Shown here: one piece after another, positions 21,201 to 62,051 of the stretch
Position numbering within the stretch: the first letter of the stretch is position 1
Layout: every line of letters begins with the position of its first letter
Assembly (NCBI GenBank): GCA_032158295.1
Contig: CM063258.1
Coordinates: 2,190,001-2,254,000, forward strand
Origin: Pycnopodia helianthoides
Lineage: Eukaryota; Echinodermata; Asteroidea; Forcipulatida; Asteriidae
Direction of reading: 5' to 3'
Length of the DNA: 64,000 nucleotides
Program-made: the position numbers and the translations under genes
The notes under the pieces: model-generated
The model's database searches: none
What the model saw: the letters and a program-made list of their open reading frames with translations, nothing else
Told to the model about the DNA's origin: nothing

Positions 21201-24200
21201 TGAAGGTCACAACAATTATCCTTATTTTACTTGTCCAACAGCTTTTTCACAAGTCCAATACTAAATAGGGATTTTTTTCAACACTGAATGATCCAGCCGG
21301 ACAACTTGGAGAGAATTTTGACTGGTCCTAGGGTGTTTCAACTGGTATTTGGCCAACAGACCACTGTTAAGGGAGAACGTTGACATTTGTCTCCATAATG
21401 GCATCCTTAAAATTAGAATCGAAACTGAAACATTGTGTCGGATCCGAATGATTACTTGACTTTCTGTTTTGATATGACAGGTCGATCCGCTGGTTAGATA
21501 GATGCATTGCTGCCCAGAAGCGCCCTCATGAACAGAATCTCTTCGCAATCATCCAAGGAGGTTTGGATTCTGATTTAAGGACTATTTGTGCTAAAGGTGA
21601 GTAAAACGCTCTTCATTTAAAATCAAGTGTATAGAGGGAGCGTCTCAAATTGGATTGGATAAGTATCCCAGTATCCCATGCTCATGGACAGTTCCGCGCG
21701 ACTGCCGGAACTTTCCATTGAAACTTTAAAATACTAATGCGCGTATTCACTGATGTAGGATTACTCCCATACTTGGGCACAATGATGCCGCTAGTGGAAC
21801 TTTCTGGCGGTCCAATAGATTGCGGGCGTGTGCCCACGAGAGCGTACGTTTGCATATGGAACGTGTCGACTTTTGAGATGCTCCCTTACCTAAAGGCAGG
21901 ATATACTCTTGGTAATTGTCAAAGACAATTATCCTCACTTGGTGTATCCCAACAAATGCATCAAATAACAAACCTGTTAGAACTTTGGCTGAATTGGTCA
22001 TTGAAGTTGCAAGAAAATGATGAAAGAAAAAAAGTAGCATAGAATTGTGTGCTTTCAGATGCCTGGGAAAGGCTTCACTCCTGAAGAATTTCTCAGATTT
22101 TTAGTGAAAGTTACCTCTTTTTCTAAAACTACATTACTTCAAAGGGAGTCGTTTCTCACAATGTTTTATACTATCAACAGCTAATCAGTGCTCCTTTCCA
22201 ACTAAGTTTTTATGGTCATAAACTTGTAGAGTAATTACCAAAAAATTAATTACATGTATAAATGTTGTTTTTTTTTAATTGGAGAGAAACACGTTTGATT
22301 TGCTGCTGCTGTCTTGCAGTTCAGCTTGTCTATGGTGTTTTTACCAGTGTGAAAGTTCAGTGCTTTGCAAGTTCCGTGTTGTTTTGTACCTTTTTGACCG
22401 CTTAGCTACAAGTGTGATTATTTACTCATCCCCAAAACGATATCAATTGCAGAAATGGTTAAAAGGGATACCCCTGGCTATGCTATAGGAGGACTGAGTG
22501 GAGGTGAAGAAAAAGAACAATTCTGGAAGATGGTGACATTGTCTACTGATCTTCTTCCGAGGGATAAACCTCGATACTGCATGGGAGTTGGGTAAGACAT
22601 TGATAAGATATCATAAGACCTAACTTGATTGATTCTTATCTTGGACAAAGTGGCTTGATGTTCATTTCATGGGTAAGGTTGTGAATGATGATGCCAGGGC
22701 CTGATTTTTCGTGGCGAGCCGCGAGGTGACCCGTTCTCCTTGAACTTGGAATTTCTCTTCCTTTAACCCTCCTACTGTCAGTGACTCTTGGCAACATTTT
22801 CCAGTGAGTTGACCAACCATTTGAAACCATTCGACTGCCAAGGTTGTGTACGGTGGCACAACTGTGCACAGAACTAACTGTGTACTGTGTACATGCATTC
22901 CCTCATGGTATCATATTGCAGGCTGGCATAGTTTATCTATCATTCAAAACCACAGTGAATGGTATTGAATGGTCAGACAGCAAGAGGGTTAAAATGTTCC
23001 CATATGCAATAAAATTTTATGTAAAAGTGAAAGAAATCCTTTTTCTTTGTTTTGTTTTTTAGATATGCTGTGGATTTGGTTGTGTGTTGTGCATTGGGAG
23101 TTGATATGTACGACTGTGTGTACCCCACAAGAACAGCTGTAAGTATTTAAGCTAGTTAATTTTATATAGAAAATTTAATAGGGACTCTGTGACTTTTGAA
23201 ATATTACTTCTGCCGCTGATTTCACGAAACTCTACGCAACTGCGTAAGTCCACTTGCGCAACATTTGTTGTATAAGTTGTGCACCACTAACACCAGGGCC
23301 AAATTTCATGGCTCTGCTTACCGCGGATTTCTGCGCTTATGTATCATAGAATTGTGTGCTACAAGGGCTCCGTAAGCGCAGAATTCCGCGGTGAGCAGAG
23401 CCATGAAATTGGGCCCAGAAGTCTTGCACAAGTGGACTTACGCATTCAGTTGTGTCAAGTTTCGTGAAATCTGGCTGCTGGCTTCACTTGAGGCTCTTCC
23501 ACTAATCTCAGAGGCCTCAAAGGGTACTGACCTAAGTCAAGGCAAATAAACAACAAAAGCAAAAGGCTTGGAACATTACTCCTGGTTCACACAAGCCCAC
23601 TTTCATTCTATTTCCCCCCTGCCCCCTCCCCTCTCCCAGAGATTTGGTTCAGCCCTTGTGAGATCCGGTCAGCTCCAATTACAACACAAGCAATACGCCA
23701 AAGACTTCCGACCAATTGATGAGAAATGTCGGTGTTCTACGTGCCTGAATTACACCAGGGCTTACCTCCACTCCATTGCCGGCCGAGAGACGGTGGCCTG
23801 CCAGATCATCAGTGTACACAACATCAAATTTCAGGTGGGACACATTTTTAAATTTCACCGCATGATTTATTTTTTAGCCGACAACAAAATTGTTTACACT
23901 TGGGCTGTGAAGATATTGAGTGAAGTCCAAATAGTATTTTAACAGTTCAACTGAAAAAAATATACCTTACGTAATGTGAAAATTCAAGATAGTCTCTGTC
24001 TCCAGATTGCCGATGTGTATTTTGCGGTTTTGCCATCAGCTAGCTAGACTTATCTCTGGTGCCAAGTCAGCCAAATTAATGACCTCCTTTTCCTGTCTTT
24101 CATCCAGATGGATCTTATGAGGGATATACGACAGGCCATCGTAGATGATCGCTACCCAGACTTCATCAAAGACTTCATGAAAGTCGTTTATCCTACTGGA

Positions 24201-27962: not shown

Positions 27963-30900
27963 ATGGGATCAGGCTCTTCTAAGAAACATGAGAAAGCCAA
28001 GAGGGTAACCGAGGTAGTCAAGTGAGTACATCTATTGTGATTTGTGTGTCTTATAATGTAATCATTGTTGTACAGCGGCGTAGACGGGGAGGGGGGGGGG
28101 CACACAAAAATCACGGTAGTGGAAAAGGAAAAAGAGGAAAATGCAAAGAACACAAGAGGATGGTGGGCCCCTGCGGTATCCCCCTTCCAAAATAAAAGAA
28201 CGACCCGACCACTGACAAACACATTCCCTCTCCCCCCCCCCACACACACACTTAAAAGCAACCCACCACCACCAACAACAACGAAAAAGTCCTGGCTATG
28301 CCGGTGTTGGTGTAGTGGTGACTTCAACTCTCATTTTTTGCAGTATACTAATAAAAAGAAATTATTAACGACATTGAACAGAAGTACAGACATTGATTCT
28401 TTCTTTTTTTCACTCTTGTATGAAACAGTGTGGTTCGAGCTTTTGAGGATGCAGGAAAAAGATCAGCAGAGAAGAAGACCCCTCAGACTGGAGAGAGGAA
28501 GGAAGAGGGAAGAGGAGGAGTAAACAATGGAGAGGCTGTCCATCAAGGAAATGAACAAGTAGAGGTTGTTCACCAAGGAGAGGTTGTTCACCAAGGAGAG
28601 GTTGTTCACCAAGGAGAGGTTGTTCAGAAAGGAGATTCAAATGGAAAAGGTTGGTTTATCTAAGATACAAACAATGGAATTACTAGGCATGGATATTATT
28701 TATGGGGAATTCCTTAAAGTTTTTTGAATACTTATGTGGTACTCAGCAGGGGCCCAATCGTCTTATATCTTATCAATATTTTCTTTCGTTGTTCTTTTAA
28801 AAAGAGTCCTCATTTTGACATTGCCAAGAGTAAATTGGTAAATTGTATTGCACTATTTATCCACTATCAGCAGAGCAACCGGCTCAGATGAACGGGGATG
28901 TCAGTCACGTGGCCCTACCGGACACACCAATAGAAAATGAAGTCGATGACGATGAAGATGAGCTGATGCTAAGCAACGCATCTGTCAAAATACAGAGGTA
29001 ACTGGAGCTGACTTTTGTTTTATCAGATGAAATAATTGCATCAGGGATAAAGAATATTTTCTTTCGTTTCAGGGATAAAGAATATTTTCTTTCGTTGAAA
29101 CAAGCATTGACATTTGTCATTATTCATTGGAGGATAAAACTCTCTCTTTTTTTAACTATGAGGGATCAGGCTTGCTCTGAAAAGTGGTTTCTTTTCCTGC
29201 CTTTCACCTCTGTGGACCTCCGTACGAATCCCACCTCAGAGCGGAGCCTTGCATGTGGATTGGGTTTTCAATTGCGTGGATTTTCCCCATTGAGGTTTTC
29301 CTCCCCCACATCTAAAACTGGACATGTCTCCTCATTTCCTATTCATCCTGTTATTGGCGATATTTGTGCTGTTGGATGAGTAATAAAATAAATACAATAA
29401 TGTTTAATCTATATCAGTTTGAGGAGGTCGATAGCAGACACTAAATGGGTTTATAAATCATTAATTAAAAATATATAGTGCAGTCAACCTGCAACACTTA
29501 TTCGATGACAAAGATTTCATTCTCATCTGCAAAAAGTGAAAGTCAGACGACCATATTGTCACAATGGACAGCATCAATAACTGCCACTTTGGGACAATAA
29601 GTTCACCACGTGAAAGGAAATTAACAATTAGGCGATTGCTATGGCCTATTGTGCCTTTAAGTGAAGCTAAATTGGAGATACCAAAACTTGGACGCACACA
29701 CAAATATTCATCATGAATCCAGTGGAAAGGCTGACACTATAGTAGTACTTGGAGGAGACTCTCTAACACGCAGAAGGTCCTCTTGATTTTGCGCAACAAT
29801 CATGAACAGAAATCTTAGTAACTGGGAGATTGATCTTTTCAGTGTGTTTCGTGGCTACCAAGAGAGAAGTCTACGAAGGAAAGAGACCGATATGGCAATT
29901 AAAATACAACGGTGAGTGGAACACAATGGCGACTTTAACACTCTTGCACACAATAAATATATGGAATAAAGTTTACAGATTGAAAGATACGGTATATATA
30001 CGTACCCAGAGTAATCTGACAGTTCAATCAGATCTTGTTTGGTTTTCATTAAAACAACTTACAAAGCTAGTTGGTGACAGTCATGTATTTAATTCTATTG
30101 ATGAAGAGACATTGGTTTTGAGGGATAAGAAAACACCGGTTGTGATAAATTTGGTCTCTCGTTAAAAACAATGTGCCCTATGTATTCTTCAGGATTTACC
30201 GACGTCACTCGTCTAAAAAGAAGGAACCTGCAGAAGCCGCCGTGCTGGATACGATAGAGGAGGCGACCCCTGTAGCCGAAGACGCACCGGCAACGGAAGA
30301 GCCAACACATGGTATTACAACTTACACTAGAATTTAACAAGGTGTAGCTACAGAAATTGAACACATTTTTCCGCGGGAAAAAACAAAATTGTGTTATTTT
30401 TTATTTGTATGTTGCAGATAAGGACGAGCCAGATCCAAGTAAAGCCACCAAGGAATGGCTCAACAAAACACCAACCAAGACTGACACTAAGAAACAGATC
30501 GTTGGAATTGGTAAGAAATGACTACCTTCCGATCTTACTTTTTTGTAATTGATTAAAATGTGTAATTAATAGGGGACTTGGCAAACTTGCAGACCTTGGT
30601 CTGGTAATGCTATATTTTGAGTTAACACAATAGTCTTTTTAAAAAAAGTACACAATACTATAAAGGGGAAATACAAACCAACACAGAGCATCTTGCAATC
30701 TGGGAGATTTTGTACAACAATTAGGGAATTGCTTAGAATTACATTCAACACCATAGGAAAAAGGTTTCCATAATCAGGGATATTTTCAAATTTATTCATA
30801 TGAACATGAAAGGATTGATTAATTTTCAGGGAACCTTCCTTCTGCAGAATCAGGGAGAGTTGGCAGCTCTGCCAACATGTTAGTACATTCGGCCCTTAGC

Positions 30901-31776
30901 TGCGATGGAATGTTTCCGATTCAATTAAATATTTCAACCAATGTAATTTGTTTTCTCTGACATGATAGGGCAGCAGACCAAAGAGGATTTCATTTCATTC
31001 CAAGACGAGATCACAGAATTGAAATGGTATGCTGAACAACAGTTAGAGAAAGCCATTTGTGGAAGTGAATTCGTGGGGCCGAGGGTTGTGGTGAGTTTAC
31101 GTCAATAATGTCAAAACAACTCTCAAAATGCTTTGCTTTTCAAATATGCCTACAAAACTAAACCTGTGATTGATATTTTTTACATTTTCAATCGTCATGT
31201 TTGCAATTATTTAAAGGAACATTACAGAATTGGTTTTTGCTAACAAAACAGTTGCTGAAAGTGTAAGCACTTTATGTAATCCACTATATACATAAACTGA
31301 CAAACCTGTAGAAGTTTGAGATCGATCGGCCATCTGGGTCACGAGAAAATAGTGAAAAACCGCTTACACATTTGTATGAAATCATATAGATTCAACAAAT
31401 GAATAAAACGCTCACTGAGCAATAAACTCCAATCGGAAAATTAGTTTATTCATTTCTCATCAAATATGGCATTTCAGACATAAATAATCCAAGGGATGTT
31501 TTCTACTATCATCCTCATTAGACCGTGTAAGTTTTATGTAAATCTGTGATCAAAAGGTATATTTTAAGTTTTTTTCTTACCAATTCTGTAATGTTCCTTT
31601 AACCATTTATGTGAAACACCCATCCAAACACTTTATCGCTTATTCTTTTTTTTCCGACGCAGTTGGTTTCGTCAAAGGTTCCAAAAGGTGATTTGTTGGC
31701 GCAGATTGTGAAAGACGATGTACTTTCATTTCACTATGTAAGTTGATTCTTTCATTTCAATAAACAATTACAAAAT

Positions 31777-31815
<39 letters not shown>

Positions 31816-34800
31816 TGGAAATTAAAACAAGCTGTTGTTTAAATCAACCTTTTCACAGTTGTTTGTCTAATTTCTTCACGTCATGCACCTGGTATAGAAT
31901 AGGTTATCACGAAGTAACAATGACTTACAAAATTTTGAAACAAATGTCAGTAACAATATATATTTAAATTTCTATTTTTTCCCCAGGATTTTAACAAGGA
32001 CACGTTTGATGATTTACTGGGTAAGAATTCTAGCTCGCCAAATATCAATTGTTAATAATTCGACACGCGATTGTGAATCAAGTGTTCCACAGATCACTTG
32101 TTAGCCTGTGATCAAAGTGTACTTTACATATTTGAAAATGTTTTTAATTTCAATTGATGTTTATTGATGTTGATCACCCATCCACAGAGAACATTCAAGT
32201 CAACCTTGAGGCTTTTAAGCCCGGAAGTAAAGCCAGATCGATCTGCATTTATTGTCAGGTAATTATCATAACAAATAAATGGTTTTCAGAAATAAATATA
32301 CTAAAAAGTTACAAAACAACAACTTGATTAATTCGATCGATGTGCAAGGTTTGTCTGAAGTTTCTCTCAGTGACTAGCCACTTAGCTATAGTTAGTTTTG
32401 TTGTTTGACAATTCTGCAAGAATTTCCCCCTGCAAGTATCTTAAGATTTCCTCCGAACACCTCATTTATATAAACACTTTAAAGGAACATTACAGAATTG
32501 GTAAGATAAAAAATTGTAAAATATACTTTTTGATCACAGATTTACATAAAACTTACACGGTCTAATGATGATGATAGTAGAAAACATCCTTTGAAATATT
32601 TCTGTCTGAAATGCCATATTTGATGAGAAATGAATAAACTAATTTTCGATTGGAGTTTATCGCTCAGTGAGCGTTTTATTCATCTGTTGAACCTATATGA
32701 TTTCATGCAAATGTGTGATCGGTTTTTCACTATTTTCTCGTGACCCAGATGGCCGATCGATCTCAAACTTCTACAGGTTTGTCAGTTTATGTATATGGTG
32801 GATTACATAAAGTGCTTACACTGCCAGCAACTGTTTTGTTAGCAAAAACCAATTCTGTAATGTTCCTTTAATTGGAAGATATATTATTGAACAGTGTATA
32901 GATAGATAGGCTTTTACACCTTGTGCTTTCTTGTGCAATATCTGCTCTTTGTAACTTTTAACTTCATTAATTTTTGTAGCTTGTTATCTTTTGTGCAATA
33001 TTTTGTCTTCCTTTTGGATATTAATTAAAGTTTTCTGATGTCTATTGTCTGTGCATTCAATGACTAACATGTAGCTTTAAGAATGAAGCAGTCTACTGGA
33101 CTATTAATAGAGAACGTACATGTACAATATTTTGACTTCATTCTCGGTAACTTTGTACAGTATTTCACCTTCATGCTTGACTAACTCTGCGCCATCTTTT
33201 TACTTTATGCTTGGTAAACTTTGTACAATCTTTTACCTATGCTTGGTCAACTTTGTCCCATATTTTACCTTTCTGCTTGGTTAACTTTGTAAAATCTTTT
33301 CTCTTTCTTCTTTGTTAACTTTCCACAGTCTTTTACATTTATGCTTGATTAACTTTGTACAATCTCTTGACTGTTTGCTTGGTTTCAGGGAGGTCCTGGT
33401 TTCATGTATATTCGCAGAGGAAAGGTTGTTACTGTTGCAAAATTGAAGAAAGAAAGAGAACAGGATCAAGTCAGGTACTATATATATAAAGAGCCAAGAT
33501 TAATTTTAACATCAATAATGGGTGAAGAAACTGTTCATATTTAGGTAAATATAAGTCGTCAATAAGCAGAGACTACATTGATAAAAGTGCGTGTTTTTTG
33601 TTTTTTTTAACTATGGGTTTTTTTTTAAGAAGAAAAAAAATAATTTCAGCCAAATTTATCACCGCTTTCAGAAAAAACTCTTCGAATTATGTGCGAAGTT
33701 GATAAAGCTTCTTTCGTGCCGTAGTGATTGGACAAGGTTGACCAACGTGTTGTCTTCATTTCTTGATTTCTTTTGACGATCTCCTCCTTCCCAGGTTCTT
33801 TAAGGAGATGGGAAAGACCATGTCGAAGAAAGAACCAGCGAAATCGGTCATACATGTGATGGGATGTAACATGCTCGGAAATGAAAAAGGGGAAAAGGTT
33901 TGTAAATCTAGCAAATTATTATATATTACTCATTTACATTTGAATACTAAACCATGAGTGTGTGAACAATAAACTCCACCCGTCCACGACGAAGTTAGTC
34001 TACCGTACAAAGATTCAAATTTACCGAGTATTTCAGTTAGTTTAGCTTTGCTTGCTTGGCTGTACCTACAAAACATCATCACAAATGAGTTCCAAAAAGA
34101 GGCCGATCGCCCATTTCATTGCATACATACGACATGATATATATATATATATTTTAATATTTGTTGCGTTATCACAGCATGACATAAATCTTGTGCTTTC
34201 CTCATTTTTTCTCCCGTCAAGCTCTTTACTCATCTTCAAGACATAATGAAACCGAATATCGTTCGCTTTGAGGCCCCTCTCGAACTTTCACCCGCAGGTA
34301 TGAATCTTTTGAATCTTATGAACATTAGACTTTCTAAAGGAACAAGTTGTTTCAAATTGTGGAGATAATAAAACCATAAATCTTTAATTTACGTAGTTTA
34401 ACAATATGGGATATAGACGATCTGACCTGTGACATCACATGTTTACAAAAGAGCCACAGAGCCTCGACTTCCGGCGGGCACATTTGTATACAGCTCAATG
34501 GAAGAATACAACAAATCTTATGTAGTGGAGATCGCACTGTCTGATTTTTCTCAACTTTTGATACGAAGAAAGGCTTTTGTAAATTTTGAATTTATGTGAA
34601 TATTATGACACAAAATATAAATTTTCCCATTGAGCCTGTGTAGCATCTTGCCCGTCAGGAATAGCATTATAATGTACGAGGTCACCACTCTGTAAACAAA
34701 TGTAACATGGTCTATAGGACATTTTGATATTACCGAGACAGGATGGTTCGATGATAATTTTACACAATTGGTTTGAATTTATCAAAGTTCTTTCAAGGGC

Positions 34801-34934
34801 ACCATACAACTGCTTGTCTTGACGCATTGTATTTCTCTTTAATAGGTGTGGAAATGATTGAGACATACTTTGATTTTGAGAAGTACAAGACATGGCGATC
34901 GAACAAGCATCTCAAGATAGACTTGGAATTATGA
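27963..34934 (+). CDS. Unnamed gene: myristoylation signal, hexapeptide repeat, IQ motif and DUF4347-like domain, 13 exons
   Basis: I do not recognise a named orthologue. Exons: 27963-28021, 28429-28649, 28874-28997 (or from 28871), 30193-30311, 30418-30510, 30969-31090, 31663-31737, 31987-32020, 32188-32258, 33389-33474, 33795-33897, 34222-34297 and 34846-34934. All phases fit, giving 423 codons plus TGA. MGSGSSKK at the start fits N-myristoylation (Gly2, Ser6, then basic residues). Residues about 65-88 hold EVVHQG repeats. Residues 115-122 are acidic. SVKIQRIYRRHSSKKK (about 131-146) is an IQ-type calmodulin-binding motif after an acidic stretch, as in neurogranin-like proteins. Residues about 240-395 resemble DUF4347. 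The pattern is a strand RVVLVSS, then ICIYCQGGPG, then GKVVT, then FFKEMGKTM, then a strand ending in VMGCNMLGNEKG. A membrane-tethered, calcium-responsive protein is inference from motifs. No transmembrane segment or signal peptide is seen. Confidence 0.82.
28549..28630 (+). repeat. 18-bp coding tandem repeat (hexapeptide EVVHQG)
   Basis: Inside exon 2 of the unnamed gene, an 18-bp unit (GAGGTTGTTCACCAAGGA) is repeated about four times and encodes EVVHQG. A degenerate earlier copy (EAVHQG) and a last divergent one (EVVQKG) flank it. The unit length is a multiple of three, so changes in copy number keep the frame. Confidence 0.95.
28871..28876 (+). promoter_or_regulatory. Tandem NAGNAG splice acceptor at exon 3
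   Basis: The intron ends ATCAGCAG, so either AG can serve as the acceptor. Use of the first adds one alanine codon and use of the second does not. Both keep the frame into EQPAQMNGDV. Confidence 0.7.
31211..31602 (+). mobile_element. TTAA-flanked MITE, family A, copy 2
   Basis: About 390 bp with terminal inverted repeats AAAGGAACATTACAGAATTG and its complement, bounded by TTAA on both sides. It lies in intron 6 of the unnamed gene. It is a close copy of the elements at 15890-16284 and 47722-48114. Confidence 0.92.
31782..31811. repeat. Poly-A run
   Basis: About 30 A residues in intron 7 of the unnamed gene. No retrogene or SINE body is recognisable just upstream. Confidence 0.9.
32479..32871 (-). 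mobile_element. TTAA-flanked MITE, family A, copy 3, inverted
   Basis: Same element as at 31211-31602 but in the opposite orientation, in intron 9 of the unnamed gene. The two copies bracket exons 7, 8 and 9. Confidence 0.92.
32925..33388. repeat. Degenerate tandem repeat of about 35-40 bp ending at an exon
   Basis: Repeats of a unit like ATGCTTGGTTAACTTTGTAC followed by AATCTTTTACC run up to the acceptor of exon 10 (33389) in the unnamed gene. The best copies are at 33116-33388, and weaker ones start near 32925. The last unit supplies the polypyrimidine tract and CAG. Confidence 0.8.
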
Positions 34935-44600: not shown

Positions 44601-46541
44601 GCAAAAAGTACCTCAGCACAACAAAATTATGTTTACCAGAATAAGTGTACCAGCCAAATTACCATTTCACTATGTACAATTTGTGCCTGGTATCCTGCTC
44701 ATTTTTGCTTAGCAGACAATTGCTTTAAGCAATATTTTGTGCTTAAAGCTGCTCTATGAAATTGGACGATGGTCTGTCGTAGCTTAGGTCTAAGGGACGT
44801 GGCCACGAGTTCCGATAAACACAGCTTGGGGTAACCTCGATCTACGAACAAGGGACTTATTACTAACCCTAACGAGGGACTTAATTACTTACGCAACGTG
44901 CTGTCAAGGGAAGGCCAGCTTTGTCCTTCTCATCTGGATCCAACATGCCAAACTTCACAGCCAGGTCACGGTTATCAGAAATGATTGGGAAAGGGAATTC
45001 CCCGGTGAGTTGACTATCAGCCTGGATGTCCTGATGACCAAGGGAACAATTAGAGATAAAAATAGTCAACCGCTCAAAAGTCTGACAGATTTTAGATTTG
45101 AAATAAAAAGTCACTTAAGGTGATCCCTCTGCTGCTGCTTCCCAGGTTGTATTATAAACTCTGGTGTGATCTCTGGCTATACGGCAGTTACAGGTTGAAT
45201 GGCTTCTGATTTGCCCCCCCCCCCCCGAACAAAATAGGGCAACTGCCAGCATCAAGGTTAGATAGTTCAGTTGGTAGATTGCCGGCATGCTTATCTGGAG
45301 GTTGCAGGTTCAAGTCCTGCACTAGCAAGTTTCCTTCGTTCCACCCCAAAAAGATTTGAATTGTCATCAAAATATTCAATGCTCTTAAACATACCTTAAT
45401 CCAACCATTGTGACTTTCTACATCATCAATGGACAGGGCAATGAGTTTGACATTTCTTTTCGCAAATTCTGGAACAAGTTTAGCAACAGCACCAAGCTCG
45501 GTCGTACACACTGGGGTGTAATCAGCAGGGTGGGAGAACAAGATCCCCCAGCTGAAAAAACAAAACGAAATTAGTCCTGCTTTTTTTCTCTCCTTTTTCT
45601 AAAAAGGCAAATGCAAGAGTCCGTACTTACAATGATAAATGCTGTTTAAGTTATAACTTAATATGATAAGCCATGTTAATTATAATTCTTGACAAATTAA
45701 CAAACAAAATCAACAAACATAAATTACTCTGGGATCAATTAACTAAACATCAACACCTTGTTCACATACAAAAACTTATTCCAAAGGTAAATCTGTTTTA
45801 ACAGAATATAAACATAGCTGTGATTTCAAAATATCAATTCTAGATTTTAAAAATATATCTGTCCTATTTGACTAAATAATACTTAAATTATTGTTTTTTG
45901 AGTGGAAATTTTGAAAATTTTACCATAGAGCAACATGTGGTAAACACCTTAAACATTTATATTGTCATTCTTTAATAAATAACAATGATTTAACTTGTAC
46001 CAAAGGTTTGGGGCCTATATAACCTTGACTGAGGGGTGGGTTGAGGGCCATGGAGGTAGCTACCTCAATGGTTGAGCCAAACTTGGCAAAAGTGACGAAG
46101 GAATATTATCCAGAAGAACGTGTTTGCATAACCTTAAAAAATTACATAATTATTGAGTGTCGACACATTCATACAAACAATGATAACACGCTCAATTTTT
46201 AGCAAAATCACATGAAAAAAAATGCATACTTTTTAATGTTGTTTTTTTGCTTACACACAGCTAGCATGGCTAGCCGGCCTTCGTACTCCTTTCACAAAGA
46301 AACAACAACCTGGGTTGCGCCGCGGTCCGCTGCACAACTGGAGCTGGCTTTGCCTCAAGGGCCCAATTTGCTCCGTGCTTTGCACAGAGCTGCTGAACAG
46401 AAGTACCACAGTAAAATTAAACCATTGATTTGTAAAACTTTGATTTGTAACTTACGCATCTCCCAGCCATTCGTAAAAGGTGATTTCACCGTTGCTCGTT
46501 GGAGCGATGAAATCGGGGAAGATTTCGCCGAGATTCACCAT
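38672..46541 (-). CDS. PRDX6: PRDX6, 1-Cys peroxiredoxin, six coding exons
   Basis: Reduces hydrogen peroxide and phospholipid hydroperoxides through a single peroxidatic cysteine. Exons in transcript order: 46456-46541, 45395-45551, 44893-45030, 43649-43722, 42026-42098 and 38672-38803. They join in phase to 219 codons plus TAG (human about 224). Cys44 lies in [15 protein letters not shown], the 1-Cys peroxiredoxin signature. The C-terminal dimerisation region ends [11 protein letters not shown]. In human PRDX6 the phospholipase A2 site is His26, Ser32 (GDSWG) and Asp140. Here the matching positions are Tyr23, Ala29 (GDAWG) and the Asp of VGPDKK, so two of the three are lost. Ala29 is coded across the exon 1-2 junction (GC|C). 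The start ATG at 46541 fits the family N-terminus. Introns are full of MITEs. Confidence 0.96.
39683..40362. mobile_element. Compound family B element with two insertions
   Basis: A family B copy runs from GGGCCCAATTTCATAGAGCT to about 39870. It is followed by about 105 bp that also occur at about 41269-41364, then by a second copy of the family B end (AATTGTTAAGCAATATTT). That second end is split by the family G MITE at 40000-40340. All of this lies in intron 5 of PRDX6. Confidence 0.85.
40000..40340 (-). mobile_element. TTAA-flanked MITE, family G, copy 2
   Basis: Inverted copy of the element at 36733-37075. It was inserted into the TTAA of a family B end reading GCTTAAGCAGCTCTATGAAA. Intact family B copies show the empty site, so the TTAA duplication is directly visible. 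Confidence 0.93.
42708..42957. mobile_element. Family F MITE, copy 2
   Basis: Near-identical to the copy at 38147-38393, including AACCAGCGCT and GTACTTGAGTTTGTC in the interior. It lies in PRDX6 intron 4. Confidence 0.9.
43395..43640. mobile_element. Short fold-back MITE (AGACTGATCCATTAAGC)
   Basis: Inverted ends AGACTGATCCATTAAGC and GCTTAATGGATCGGTCT, with GACCAATCACA and GATTGGTCAAC just inside. It resembles the 3779-3937 element in layout and ends beside PRDX6 exon 4 (43649). Confidence 0.8.
44034..44383 (-). mobile_element. Family C repeat, inverted copy
   Basis: Reverse-complement match to 1946-2274 and 49621-49970, inside PRDX6 intron 3 near exon 4. Confidence 0.88.
44573..44766. 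mobile_element. Family B fold-back MITE, copy 5
   Basis: Standard family B structure from GGGCCCAATTTCATGGAGCT to GCTCTATGAAATTGG, in PRDX6 intron 3, about 126 bp from exon 3. Confidence 0.88.
45249..45350 (+). mobile_element. tRNA-like SINE fragment in PRDX6 intron 2
   Basis: TAGTTCAGTTGGTAGATTG resembles an A box and GCAGGTTCAAGTCCTGC a B box. A tail with TTCCTTCGTTCCACCCCAA follows. The cloverleaf is incomplete and the tail is SINE-like, so this is a retroposed tRNA derivative rather than a working tRNA gene. Confidence 0.65.
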
Positions 46542-59229: not shown

Positions 59230-60255
59230 ATGGGGTCCGGGACCCTACTTGCTGGCTTCCTCTATGTGCCATTATCTCCAGATCCACTCGTTTCCCCATT
59301 AACGCCGGTGGAAATGACATCAGAGGAAAATCCAGACTGTGGCCCCGCCGTCAGTTGTTGTAGCTGTGCTCGTTTTTTCCACCGTCATAAGCTGCTGAAC
59401 CCCGGCCCGGATCTGAGCAGCCCACTCGCCAGACACGACCTAGTTGGTTGTTGGGACGACAGAGGGAGAGTTGAACTCCTCAGACCTGTTGAGTCAAAGA
59501 GTTGTGATTGCCACGACCAACCGTGTCCCCTGGATCCAAGCAGACCGGGGCTTAGTCAGTCCCAACGGACGATTCATCACCAGGATCATCAGCAAAAACT
59601 TCTCGAGTCTCCAGTAAGCCACAGTTTCAGGCCTGCTTCAACATTGAACCAGCTGATTCTGCCTCTGCTTATCTGTGCGCAGCTTTTGTACTTTGTGAAA
59701 GTGAACTGCTACCAAACTCATTTGGATTTTATACCCGGTCTTTTGATACGACTTTTGTTGCTGTGTTTACTACCCCCAAGAACGCCTCTTGAAATACTGG
59801 AACATGTTTGGAACCATGTACTAGCATCTGCACAATCTGTTCAGATTTCAAAGTTTTCAACTCGAGCTGAAACACTGACGTTGGTTCTACGTGAGCTTAA
59901 TACATTTTCTCAAACCTCCGCGTTGTTTACAAAGTTTTTCAACTTTTGTAAACATTGTCATTCGAGTAAGCAACTCGGTGCTGAGGTTAAAACACAGGTG
60001 ATTTATCCCTCTCCGCAAACTAATGCAGTTAAAGTCCCACAAACTTGTCATAAGTTGTTGGATGCAAAGCCCTATCGGAGTGGCATAACTCTCGAATCGC
60101 ACGTGTGTGGAACTAAACTTAGTGTGCGGATTTTCAAGCGCCTAGAATCTGGCGTGTTTTGCGGCAGGTTTGTGCCATTTCTGACTGCCCTCTTTCCTTT
60201 CGTCGCCACCCTAGGCCGAGCCAGTTACACCCCTCGACTCTTCCAGCACTTGCCG
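59230..60255 (+). other. Long open frame in phase with, and directly upstream of, FAM78
   Basis: From an ATG at 59230 the frame stays open for 342 codons and runs straight into the FAM78 start at 60256. I recognise no domain in it. It has a hydrophobic stretch (about residues 140-185, with LILPLLICAQLLYF and LLIRLLLLCLLPP) and several Cys/His-rich bits. Vertebrate FAM78 proteins begin at the equivalent of 60256, so this is most likely 5' UTR that happens to be open. An N-terminal extension is not excluded. Confidence 0.4.
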
Positions 60256-60518
60256 ATGGGGTGCATACTGCCAAAACGCCAGAAGAACCTCGGTCTTGAA
60301 GGTGATATCAAAGTGTACGACCTCCATGCGATCATCGACCCTCACCCGACGACTCTTATTGAGAATTCCCCAACGGTGCTGAAGTACCAGACGCCGCACT
60401 TCCGCGCCTCGGCCCGGGTTCGATTCCCACCGGTTAGCGGCAATGACACGTGGCAGATCGGATGGGTACAAGGTTGTAACAATATGGACTTCACCATCTC
60501 GTACGGCAATCTTGGAAC
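60256..60518 (+). CDS. FAM78A: FAM78 family, first coding exon (gene continues beyond the window)
   Basis: Encodes 87 residues plus two bases, ending at an AC|GTAAGT donor. The protein starts MGCILPKRQKNL and contains VYDLHAIIDPHPTTLIENSP, TVLKYQTPHFRASARVRFPP and WQIGWVQGCNNMDFTISYGN, which match the start of vertebrate FAM78A and FAM78B closely. MGC at the start suggests myristoylation of Gly2 and palmitoylation of Cys3, as vertebrate FAM78 also begins MGC. Function is unknown. A single invertebrate gene is probably co-orthologous to both vertebrate copies, so the symbol is approximate. The following exon (SSWELP region in vertebrates) was not found before 64000. Confidence 0.9.
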
Positions 60519-62051
60519 GTAAGTGAACTTTTACAATTTCTTTTTTTCCTTCTTCATCAAAACTAACCCTTTATTTTCCAGTGGAAGGCTCATGGAAACA
60601 ATCATCCGAACAACTTAAAGAGAAATTACGTCTGACGAATATTGTTTACCCTGAACTTATTAAAGAATCAGTGAATAGTGCAAAGTTCATTCCTCCATCA
60701 AGTATGTAGTAATAAAAACTAAAAAACTGCAACCAGAGTAAAAACCAACCCAACCGAAAGGGGTAGAAGAACACTTTGTGCCTGCAAATTGCATGTCTCA
60801 TGCAGTAGTCCCTGAAATATCAAAGCCTGACACCTACCAAATAAAATAGAATTAGAGTCAGGATACTACCATCCCTTCAGGTAACCTGACTGAAACCTTA
60901 GACCATTGTCTTTAAGATATTCAGTATATCTTCCCTCACTTCTGTAACGCATATACTTTATCTCGTTTCCAAATGATGTCACGCAAAGTCTTTACGAAAA
61001 GATAAAGCGCTCAAGCTCTCTGATAGGAAAAGTTTCATTCGCAAAAGTAGAATAAAAATAAAGGGTTCTTCTCATTTAACTTACTTTAAAATACAAATTG
61101 ATTAAATTATTTATGAATTTTTTTAAAGCACGGTGTGTCATAAGCGATGTATATATATATTTTTAGATCAGTGTATTTTATGGTGAAATATAACACCATG
61201 TACTTTGCGTGTACATGAACAGGTACCTTTAAATTTCACATTGTGTTTTTAATATGCCGTTATACCCTGGAAATGTGCGATGCCAGTGTTGTACTTCACT
61301 CGCATGGATTACCACTTGGATCGACTCGACAAAAACAACGGCTACAACAACAAAAGCAACACTAACAGCCGCAACAGCAACAAACAATATAACATAGAAC
61401 TTTCCTCACACTCTTATCTTTATAGTAAAGTTCAAAGTTCAAGCAGAGCGAGCCACTTTGCATTATTTAGATCCCATTATAAACGTTGGATATCACATCA
61501 TAATCAATTTAAATTCAGCATTTCCTCTTTCCTCTCTGTGGAACCATCACCATAACAAAATAATCCTCGGGCCGGATTGACCATAGTCCTCAACAGTAAA
61601 GCACACGAACTGTATGTTCGCATGCTATACGAGTGCATTCAGACTATTGGCAATTTTGGCGTGACATGAATTTTACGCTATAATTAATTGTTACACCTGT
61701 TCTAATTCAACGAGTGACAACACAAACACGCTATGTTTACGGTTGACTGCATTGATGAGCAGGTTTCATTGGCTGATTAGCAAAGAGGGAAAGTGAGTCA
61801 TTGTTTTTTTGATAGCGAGTTTACCCCGGTTGGTAATACAGGCATTTTTGTTTGCTGTTGAGAAGCTTGTGCGTGGTTCTCACTTGCCTAATATGGAATC
61901 ATGTCACCATGGCCTAAAATTAGAATAATGCTTAAAAACATTCTGCTAAGCACCAATAAAGCAGGGTACCAGTCACATATGCTAAATGTGAAATGGTATT
62001 TTAGTTGGTAACCTTTTTCTGGCAAGCATAATTTTGGTTGTGCTTAGTTCG

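Follow-up and report, generated by a model that had tools for sequence, protein, structure and literature searches.

A sea star ortholog of vertebrate NSMF/Jacob whose C-terminal third is a probable DUF4347-type domain lacking the catalytic histidine

We analyzed a gene at positions 27963–34934 (+ strand) of a 64,000-nt stretch of the Pycnopodia helianthoides genome (GenBank assembly GCA_032158295.1, contig CM063258.1, positions 2,190,001 to 2,254,000 of the forward strand; hereafter the window). Sequence comparison identifies this gene as a sea star ortholog of vertebrate NSMF/Jacob, described as a synapse-to-nucleus messenger (PMC8662305). We favor the reading, with a probability of about 0.75, that the C-terminal third of the protein is a folded DUF4347-type, cysteine-peptidase-like α/β domain that has lost its catalytic His and hence acts as a binding module rather than a protease. 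The orthology, the architecture, the relation to DUF4347, the loss of the His and the conservation of a 69-nt exon are all supported by comparisons among homologous sequences.

RESULTS

The gene is a sea star NSMF/Jacob

A protein search with residues 130–446 returned 55 proteins, 49 of which are named NSMF or NELF, 3 unnamed and 3 with a generic name. The best match was to Asterias rubens (88% identity, E = 2.1e-185), and the remainder came from vertebrates, a hemichordate and other echinoderms (more sea stars, sea urchins, sea cucumbers and a crinoid). Many vertebrate NSMF proteins aligned at 37–38% identity over 97–99% of the query, as befits an NSMF homolog, and with a profile search the set grew by amphioxus proteins and one protein without a name. 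When 25 of the 55 proteins found were aligned, 30 columns were invariant. Given that most matches carry the name NSMF or NELF, with amphioxus proteins in addition, we conclude that this is a known gene in another species and not the undescribed animal protein that the first-pass annotation took it to be. The NSMF naming of its relatives is already in place through automatic annotation.

Several amphioxus proteins (P0056–P0058, P0061–P0070) are NSMF-like and of differing length, and some have Lys in place of Gln before GGPA. Their number suggests lineage-specific duplicates or split gene models. A further protein search, aimed at ECT2L and protostomes, returned only 13 amphioxus proteins. This search and the profile search, both based on alignments, each scored only ∼8,000 candidates, and for this reason absence from protostomes or cnidarians is not established. 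A DUF4347 search of the Pycnopodia genome gave no matches, missing even this gene, and was also silent in control genomes, making it uninformative on copy number.

A 2021 review (PMC8662305) presents Jacob as a mostly disordered protein that has a putative zinc finger and no known domain, and that lacks an invertebrate ortholog. The last statement is contradicted by the echinoderm, hemichordate and amphioxus sequences, and we dispute the picture of a disordered, domainless protein for the C-terminal third. In the literature that we searched, which left out most subscription papers and all bioRxiv preprints, no paper was found that joins NSMF with amphioxus, with sea urchin or, in the text available, with DUF4347.

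The C-terminal third is probably related to DUF4347

A DUF4347-like domain had been proposed from the sequence alone, and the Pfam profile (PF14252) indeed matches residues 268–405 (E = 2.3e-5), passing the gathering cut-off marginally (24.7 versus 24.6 bits) and leaving the final 43 of its 164 positions uncovered. Of 17 NSMF proteins scanned, 14 matched DUF4347, with E values from 1.5e-6 (Patiria) to 0.02 (a ray), and 5 were over the cut-off; the three amphioxus proteins in this set gave no match. So as not to depend on Pfam alone, we gathered bacterial DUF4347 domains from 88 loci and dropped one as short, leaving 87. Profile–profile alignment (hhalign) of 17 NSMF with 8 bacterial sequences gave an E value of 7.3e-6, and that of 59 NSMF with the 87 bacterial sequences gave 8.4e-5, compared to 0.058 for a reversed control and at least 0.13 for 20 column-shuffled controls. 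Both alignments place NSMF QGGPG on bacterial HGxxG, and NSMF MGC on bacterial YGC. A hidden Markov model (HMM) of the 87 bacterial domains ranked 59 of 60 NSMF proteins over the best of 120 decoys, a count to be read with the mutual relatedness of the NSMF sequences in mind.

The single-sequence DUF4347 scores are marginal. The plain bacteria-only HMM was not significant on NSMF (best E = 0.049), and NCBIfam gave no match for the Pycnopodia protein. Foldseek returned nothing with E ≤0.001 for either of two models, the top rows being varied α/β and other proteins. Several methods nonetheless agree, and by these comparisons the relation of NSMF to DUF4347 is likely to be real and under-recognized. 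In some databases, 6 of the 10 echinoderm proteins from the protein search and one fish NSMF (P0049) are already labeled DUF4347. One NSMF paper that employed AlphaFold modeled the protein only up to residue 229.

The catalytic His is lost

An alignment covering most of the domain brings into correspondence both active-site motif positions of NSMF and of the bacterial domains, which here often lie in very large proteins. The Pycnopodia domain differs in having Gln for His and in being part of an animal protein that also contains an IQ motif. We counted residues on an alignment of 70 NSMF proteins, 3 of which lack the His column and 4 the Cys column. His occurs at the catalytic position in 0 of 67 proteins (62 Gln, 3 Lys, 1 Ser, 1 Met), and Cys occupies its column in 64 of 66, with Asn in the other two (P0008, from Apostichopus, and P0060). 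The Pycnopodia protein has Gln at the His place and Cys at the Cys place, whereas among the bacterial domains the His motif is found in 78/87 and the Cys motif in 85/87. The two motifs are spaced by 53 residues here, compared with 51 for most vertebrates and 54 for the bacterial protein Tce1. An HG-x-PG-like motif had been expected from the first-pass annotation: the motif position is there, but its letters are QGGPG. The strand predicted to end in GCN was read correctly (HVMGCN).

Caspase, CHAT and C80-type cysteine peptidases belong to clan CD. The His–Cys dyad of this clan is absent from NSMF, its His column being empty of His and its Cys column nearly filled. Of the proposed relationship to caspase-fold proteins, kinship with cysteine-protease-fold proteins is likely, but catalytic activity is unsupported because none of the 67 proteins covering the catalytic position has His there. 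Could an unusual partner replace the missing His in an active cysteine peptidase? The near-constant Cys, and a His four residues upstream of it in 67/67 proteins, are what such an enzyme would offer. However, residues i and i+4 on one strand would be too distant to form a dyad, the Cys itself is replaced by Asn in P0008 and P0060, and the catalytic place never holds His, so we regard an active enzyme as very improbable.

Around the site, residues G307, P309, G310, H355 and G358 (A. rubens numbering) do not vary among the 25 aligned proteins and rank with the most conserved. Conservation of the site without catalysis suggests a binding pocket, and we infer that the former active-site region (QGGPG...HxMGC) now accommodates a ligand or partner.

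Relatives of the domain

Tce1 (PA0256; PDB 9qpe) is described as a putative cysteine protease that contains a DUF4347 domain, and protease activity has been proposed for it. It has both His and Cys, whereas NSMF has only the Cys. In a fold comparison, Tce1 stood 2.7 Z units over the next entry. The nearest domain relative among PDB sequences is ECT2L (PDB 11xu; E = 1.4e-6 with the NSMF profile). A fragment of ECT2L, namely the stretch already aligned with NSMF, matched NSMF with an E value of 1.3e-10 and the Pfam DUF4347 profile with 31.0 bits, over the cut-off; against bacteria-only DUF4347, its E value was only 0.0065. ECT2L differs in being a 904-residue chain and in having two motifs that look degenerate (SDGD, LGAS). 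Since ECT2L matches both NSMF and DUF4347, NSMF and ECT2L look like two branches, both in animals, of a single degenerate DUF4347 lineage, as far as their sequences tell. A 24.7 kDa excretory-secretory protein of the snail Biomphalaria has been annotated as DUF4347 domain-containing (PMC6744689), and is perhaps a further animal branch, outside the deuterostomes.

These relatives bear on whether the C-terminal third might be a generic Rossmann-like α/β domain, similar to DUF4347 by convergence and with no peptidase ancestry. We consider this unlikely, as the controls fall far short of the profile–profile matches, which keep both active-site motifs in register, Tce1 leads the fold comparison, and the ECT2L fragment matches NSMF and DUF4347 alike.

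Two groups of hits were set aside. TAL-effector repeat proteins topped the PDB profile search spuriously, through summed sub-threshold matches with 0 passing stretches, and rows such as the interleukin-23 receptor and adhesion GPCR B3 were chance matches (E = 0.02–2).

The predicted zinc finger and export signal lie in the domain

A CH-HC zinc finger, the second of those in the review, has been predicted at residues 413–465 of mammalian Jacob (PMC8662305, citing Xu et al.). This element would run from the Cys of CQGGPGH to the Cys of HVMGC, which in the pig protein of 530 residues are residues 411 and 463; a two-residue shift for the 532-residue rat protein would give 413 and 465. All four Cys/His residues (FCQGGPGH, HVMGC) are found as a set in 41 of the 44 vertebrate-set proteins (P0012–P0055), as a zinc finger would have it, but in only 1 of the 26 from invertebrates, where three proteins lack the region. 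It follows that these four residues do not hold the fold across the family. Two lampreys also lack the full set, the Pycnopodia protein carries Phe in the second place, which breaks the CH-HC pattern, and the region is predicted to lie inside a folded α/β domain. A zinc finger here therefore seems highly implausible.

The export signal of rat Jacob has been mapped to residues 476–485 (LFQNLRTLMT), and an L476A mutant is reported to lose CRM1 binding (PMC7802242). The segment aligns with LFTHLQDIMK of the Pycnopodia protein, within a predicted helix of the domain. Unfolding is hence a possible alternative cause of the L476A phenotype.

N-terminus, IQ region and a conserved 69-nt exon

The MGSGSS start agrees with the predicted myristoylation signal, fitting the pattern MGxxxS. 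A permissive MG-start consensus fits 48/48 MG-starting NSMF proteins, sea stars included; 22 of the 70 proteins start otherwise. The IQ motif recognized earlier is confirmed by Pfam (PF00612, E = 1.1e-6). Most of the first IQ motif, including its core, is encoded by exon 4 (IQSVFRGYQERSLRRK), whose product is identical to that of A. rubens at 21 of 23 residues. The VFRGY of A. rubens aligns with mammalian VFRGY, and the Pycnopodia protein has identical letters, including the anchoring Phe. Basic residues occur in and after exon 4. Myristoylation of Jacob and its caldendrin-binding IQ region are published, and the review restricts the functional myristoylation motif to mammals (PMC8662305).

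Exon 4 matches exon 6 of mammalian NSMF, a cassette exon, in length (69 nt) and aligned place. Two pairs of vertebrate proteins, each from one species (P0025/P0034 and P0015/P0035), differ by exactly these 23 residues at the place of exon 4, and P0036, P0045, P0048 and P0049 have the same junction. The sea star and vertebrate proteins are alike in an MGxxxSK-type start, an IQ region with the Phe of VFRGY, the aligned 69-nt exon and a conserved C-terminal domain. The sea star protein differs in a much shorter pre-IQ region, an incomplete CH-HC set and GCN for GCY.

Gene structure and other features of the window

In the genomic sequence, the gene is intact, with 14 coding exons, 446 codons, a single stop and GT...AG at every intron (Table 1). 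A plus-strand gene that joins in frame over this interval had been noted before, but with 13 exons and 423 codons, the 69-nt exon having been overlooked; its omission stays in frame and gives exactly those numbers. An erroneous gene model or a pseudogene is the least probable of the alternatives: the model was built from genomic sequence, but its splice sites and single stop are in order, and exons 7–14 match the A. rubens protein at 80–100% identity. In exon 2, just 24 of 73 residues are identical to A. rubens and 27 are gapped; its 18-nt repeat has 4.4 copies here and ∼1 copy in A. rubens.

Introns 7 and 10 contain two inverted copies of a ∼390-bp element, 89–96% complementary over three blocks. 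The pair resembles a small transposable element and, in the pre-mRNA, could fold into a large hairpin around exons 8–10. A 34-bp tandem array at the end of intron 10 stops just short of exon 11. Elsewhere in the window are two exon-like open reading frames (ORFs) with Pfam matches and the final part of a 438-aa open frame (MGCILPKRQKNLG...). The latter resembles FAM78 and has no Pfam match.

Table 1. Coding exons of the Pycnopodia NSMF gene and other features of the window
Feature	Position	Strand	Description
Exon 1	27963..28021	+	Start codon; N-myristoylation-type signal MGSGSSKK
Exon 2	28429..28649	+	Fast-evolving linker; 18-nt in-frame tandem repeat at 28556-28635 (EVVHQG)
Exon 3	28874..28997	+	Linker, then beginning of IQ motif 1
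Exon 4	29843..29911	+	69 nt, phase 2/2; IQ motif 1 core, beginning of IQ-like motif 2
Exon 5	30193..30311	+	End of IQ-like motif 2 (IKIQRIYRRHSSKKK), then linker
Exon 6	30418..30510	+	Linker
Exon 7	30969..31090	+	Helix with Trp invariant in 25 aligned proteins; DUF4347-like domain starts at ∼31085
Exon 8	31663..31737	+	End of domain strand 1 (LVSSKVPKG), then helix
Exon 9	31987..32020	+	DUF4347-like domain
Exon 10	32188..32258	+	Domain strand 3; last residue Gln329 (codon 32256-32258) at His place of bacterial DUF4347
Exon 11	33389..33474	+	GGPG loop and region after it
Exon 12	33795..33897	+	Strand 4, HVMGCN: His378 (33853-33855), Cys382 (33865-33867) at Cys place of bacterial DUF4347
Exon 13	34222..34297	+	Helix LFTHLQDIMK (34222-34251), aligned to rat Jacob export signal LFQNLRTLMT
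Exon 14	34846..34934	+	C-terminal helices, stop codon
Inverted element, intron 7	31211..31602		∼390-bp copy
Inverted element, intron 10	32479..32871		∼390-bp copy
Tandem array, intron 10	33121..33384		34 bp, 7.9 copies
Exon-like ORF	23550..23942	+	Queuine tRNA-ribosyltransferase match (PF01702, 3.4e-20)
Exon-like ORF	45188..45598	-	AhpC/TSA peroxiredoxin match (PF00578, 6.4e-14)
End of 438-aa open frame	∼60250..60522	+	No Pfam match

DISCUSSION

Membrane anchoring, Ca2+ control and shuttling of the sea star protein are presumed by analogy to work on vertebrates. An N-terminal myristoyl group would tether the protein to the membrane, and a calmodulin/caldendrin-type Ca2+ sensor would bind the paired IQ motifs, themselves overlapping a basic stretch that resembles a nuclear localization signal. 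Changes in Ca2+ would free the protein for nuclear transport; in the nucleus, the C-terminal domain may dock partners and provide the export helix.

A more specific scenario can be offered only tentatively. NSMF/Jacob may be a pseudopeptidase, in which an old bacterial-type cysteine peptidase domain, which animals also have in ECT2L, was made into a Ca2+-gated membrane-to-nucleus messenger in deuterostomes, with the former substrate groove (QGGPG...HxMGC) reading a peptide that belongs to a nuclear partner or to Jacob itself. If this is true, the export signal is a core domain helix, L476A and mutants like it may exert their effect by unfolding it, and a calcium- and splice-controlled IQ switch is older than vertebrates.

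The interest of the domain lies in its implications for vertebrate Jacob; NSMF variants have been reported in hypogonadotropic hypogonadism. A DUF4347-type fold would equip the most conserved third of Jacob with a defined structure and a pocket that can be tested, and would provide an alternative reading of both the zinc finger and the export-signal mutant. With the architecture present in echinoderms, a hemichordate and amphioxus, a pre-vertebrate role of this protein is open to study.
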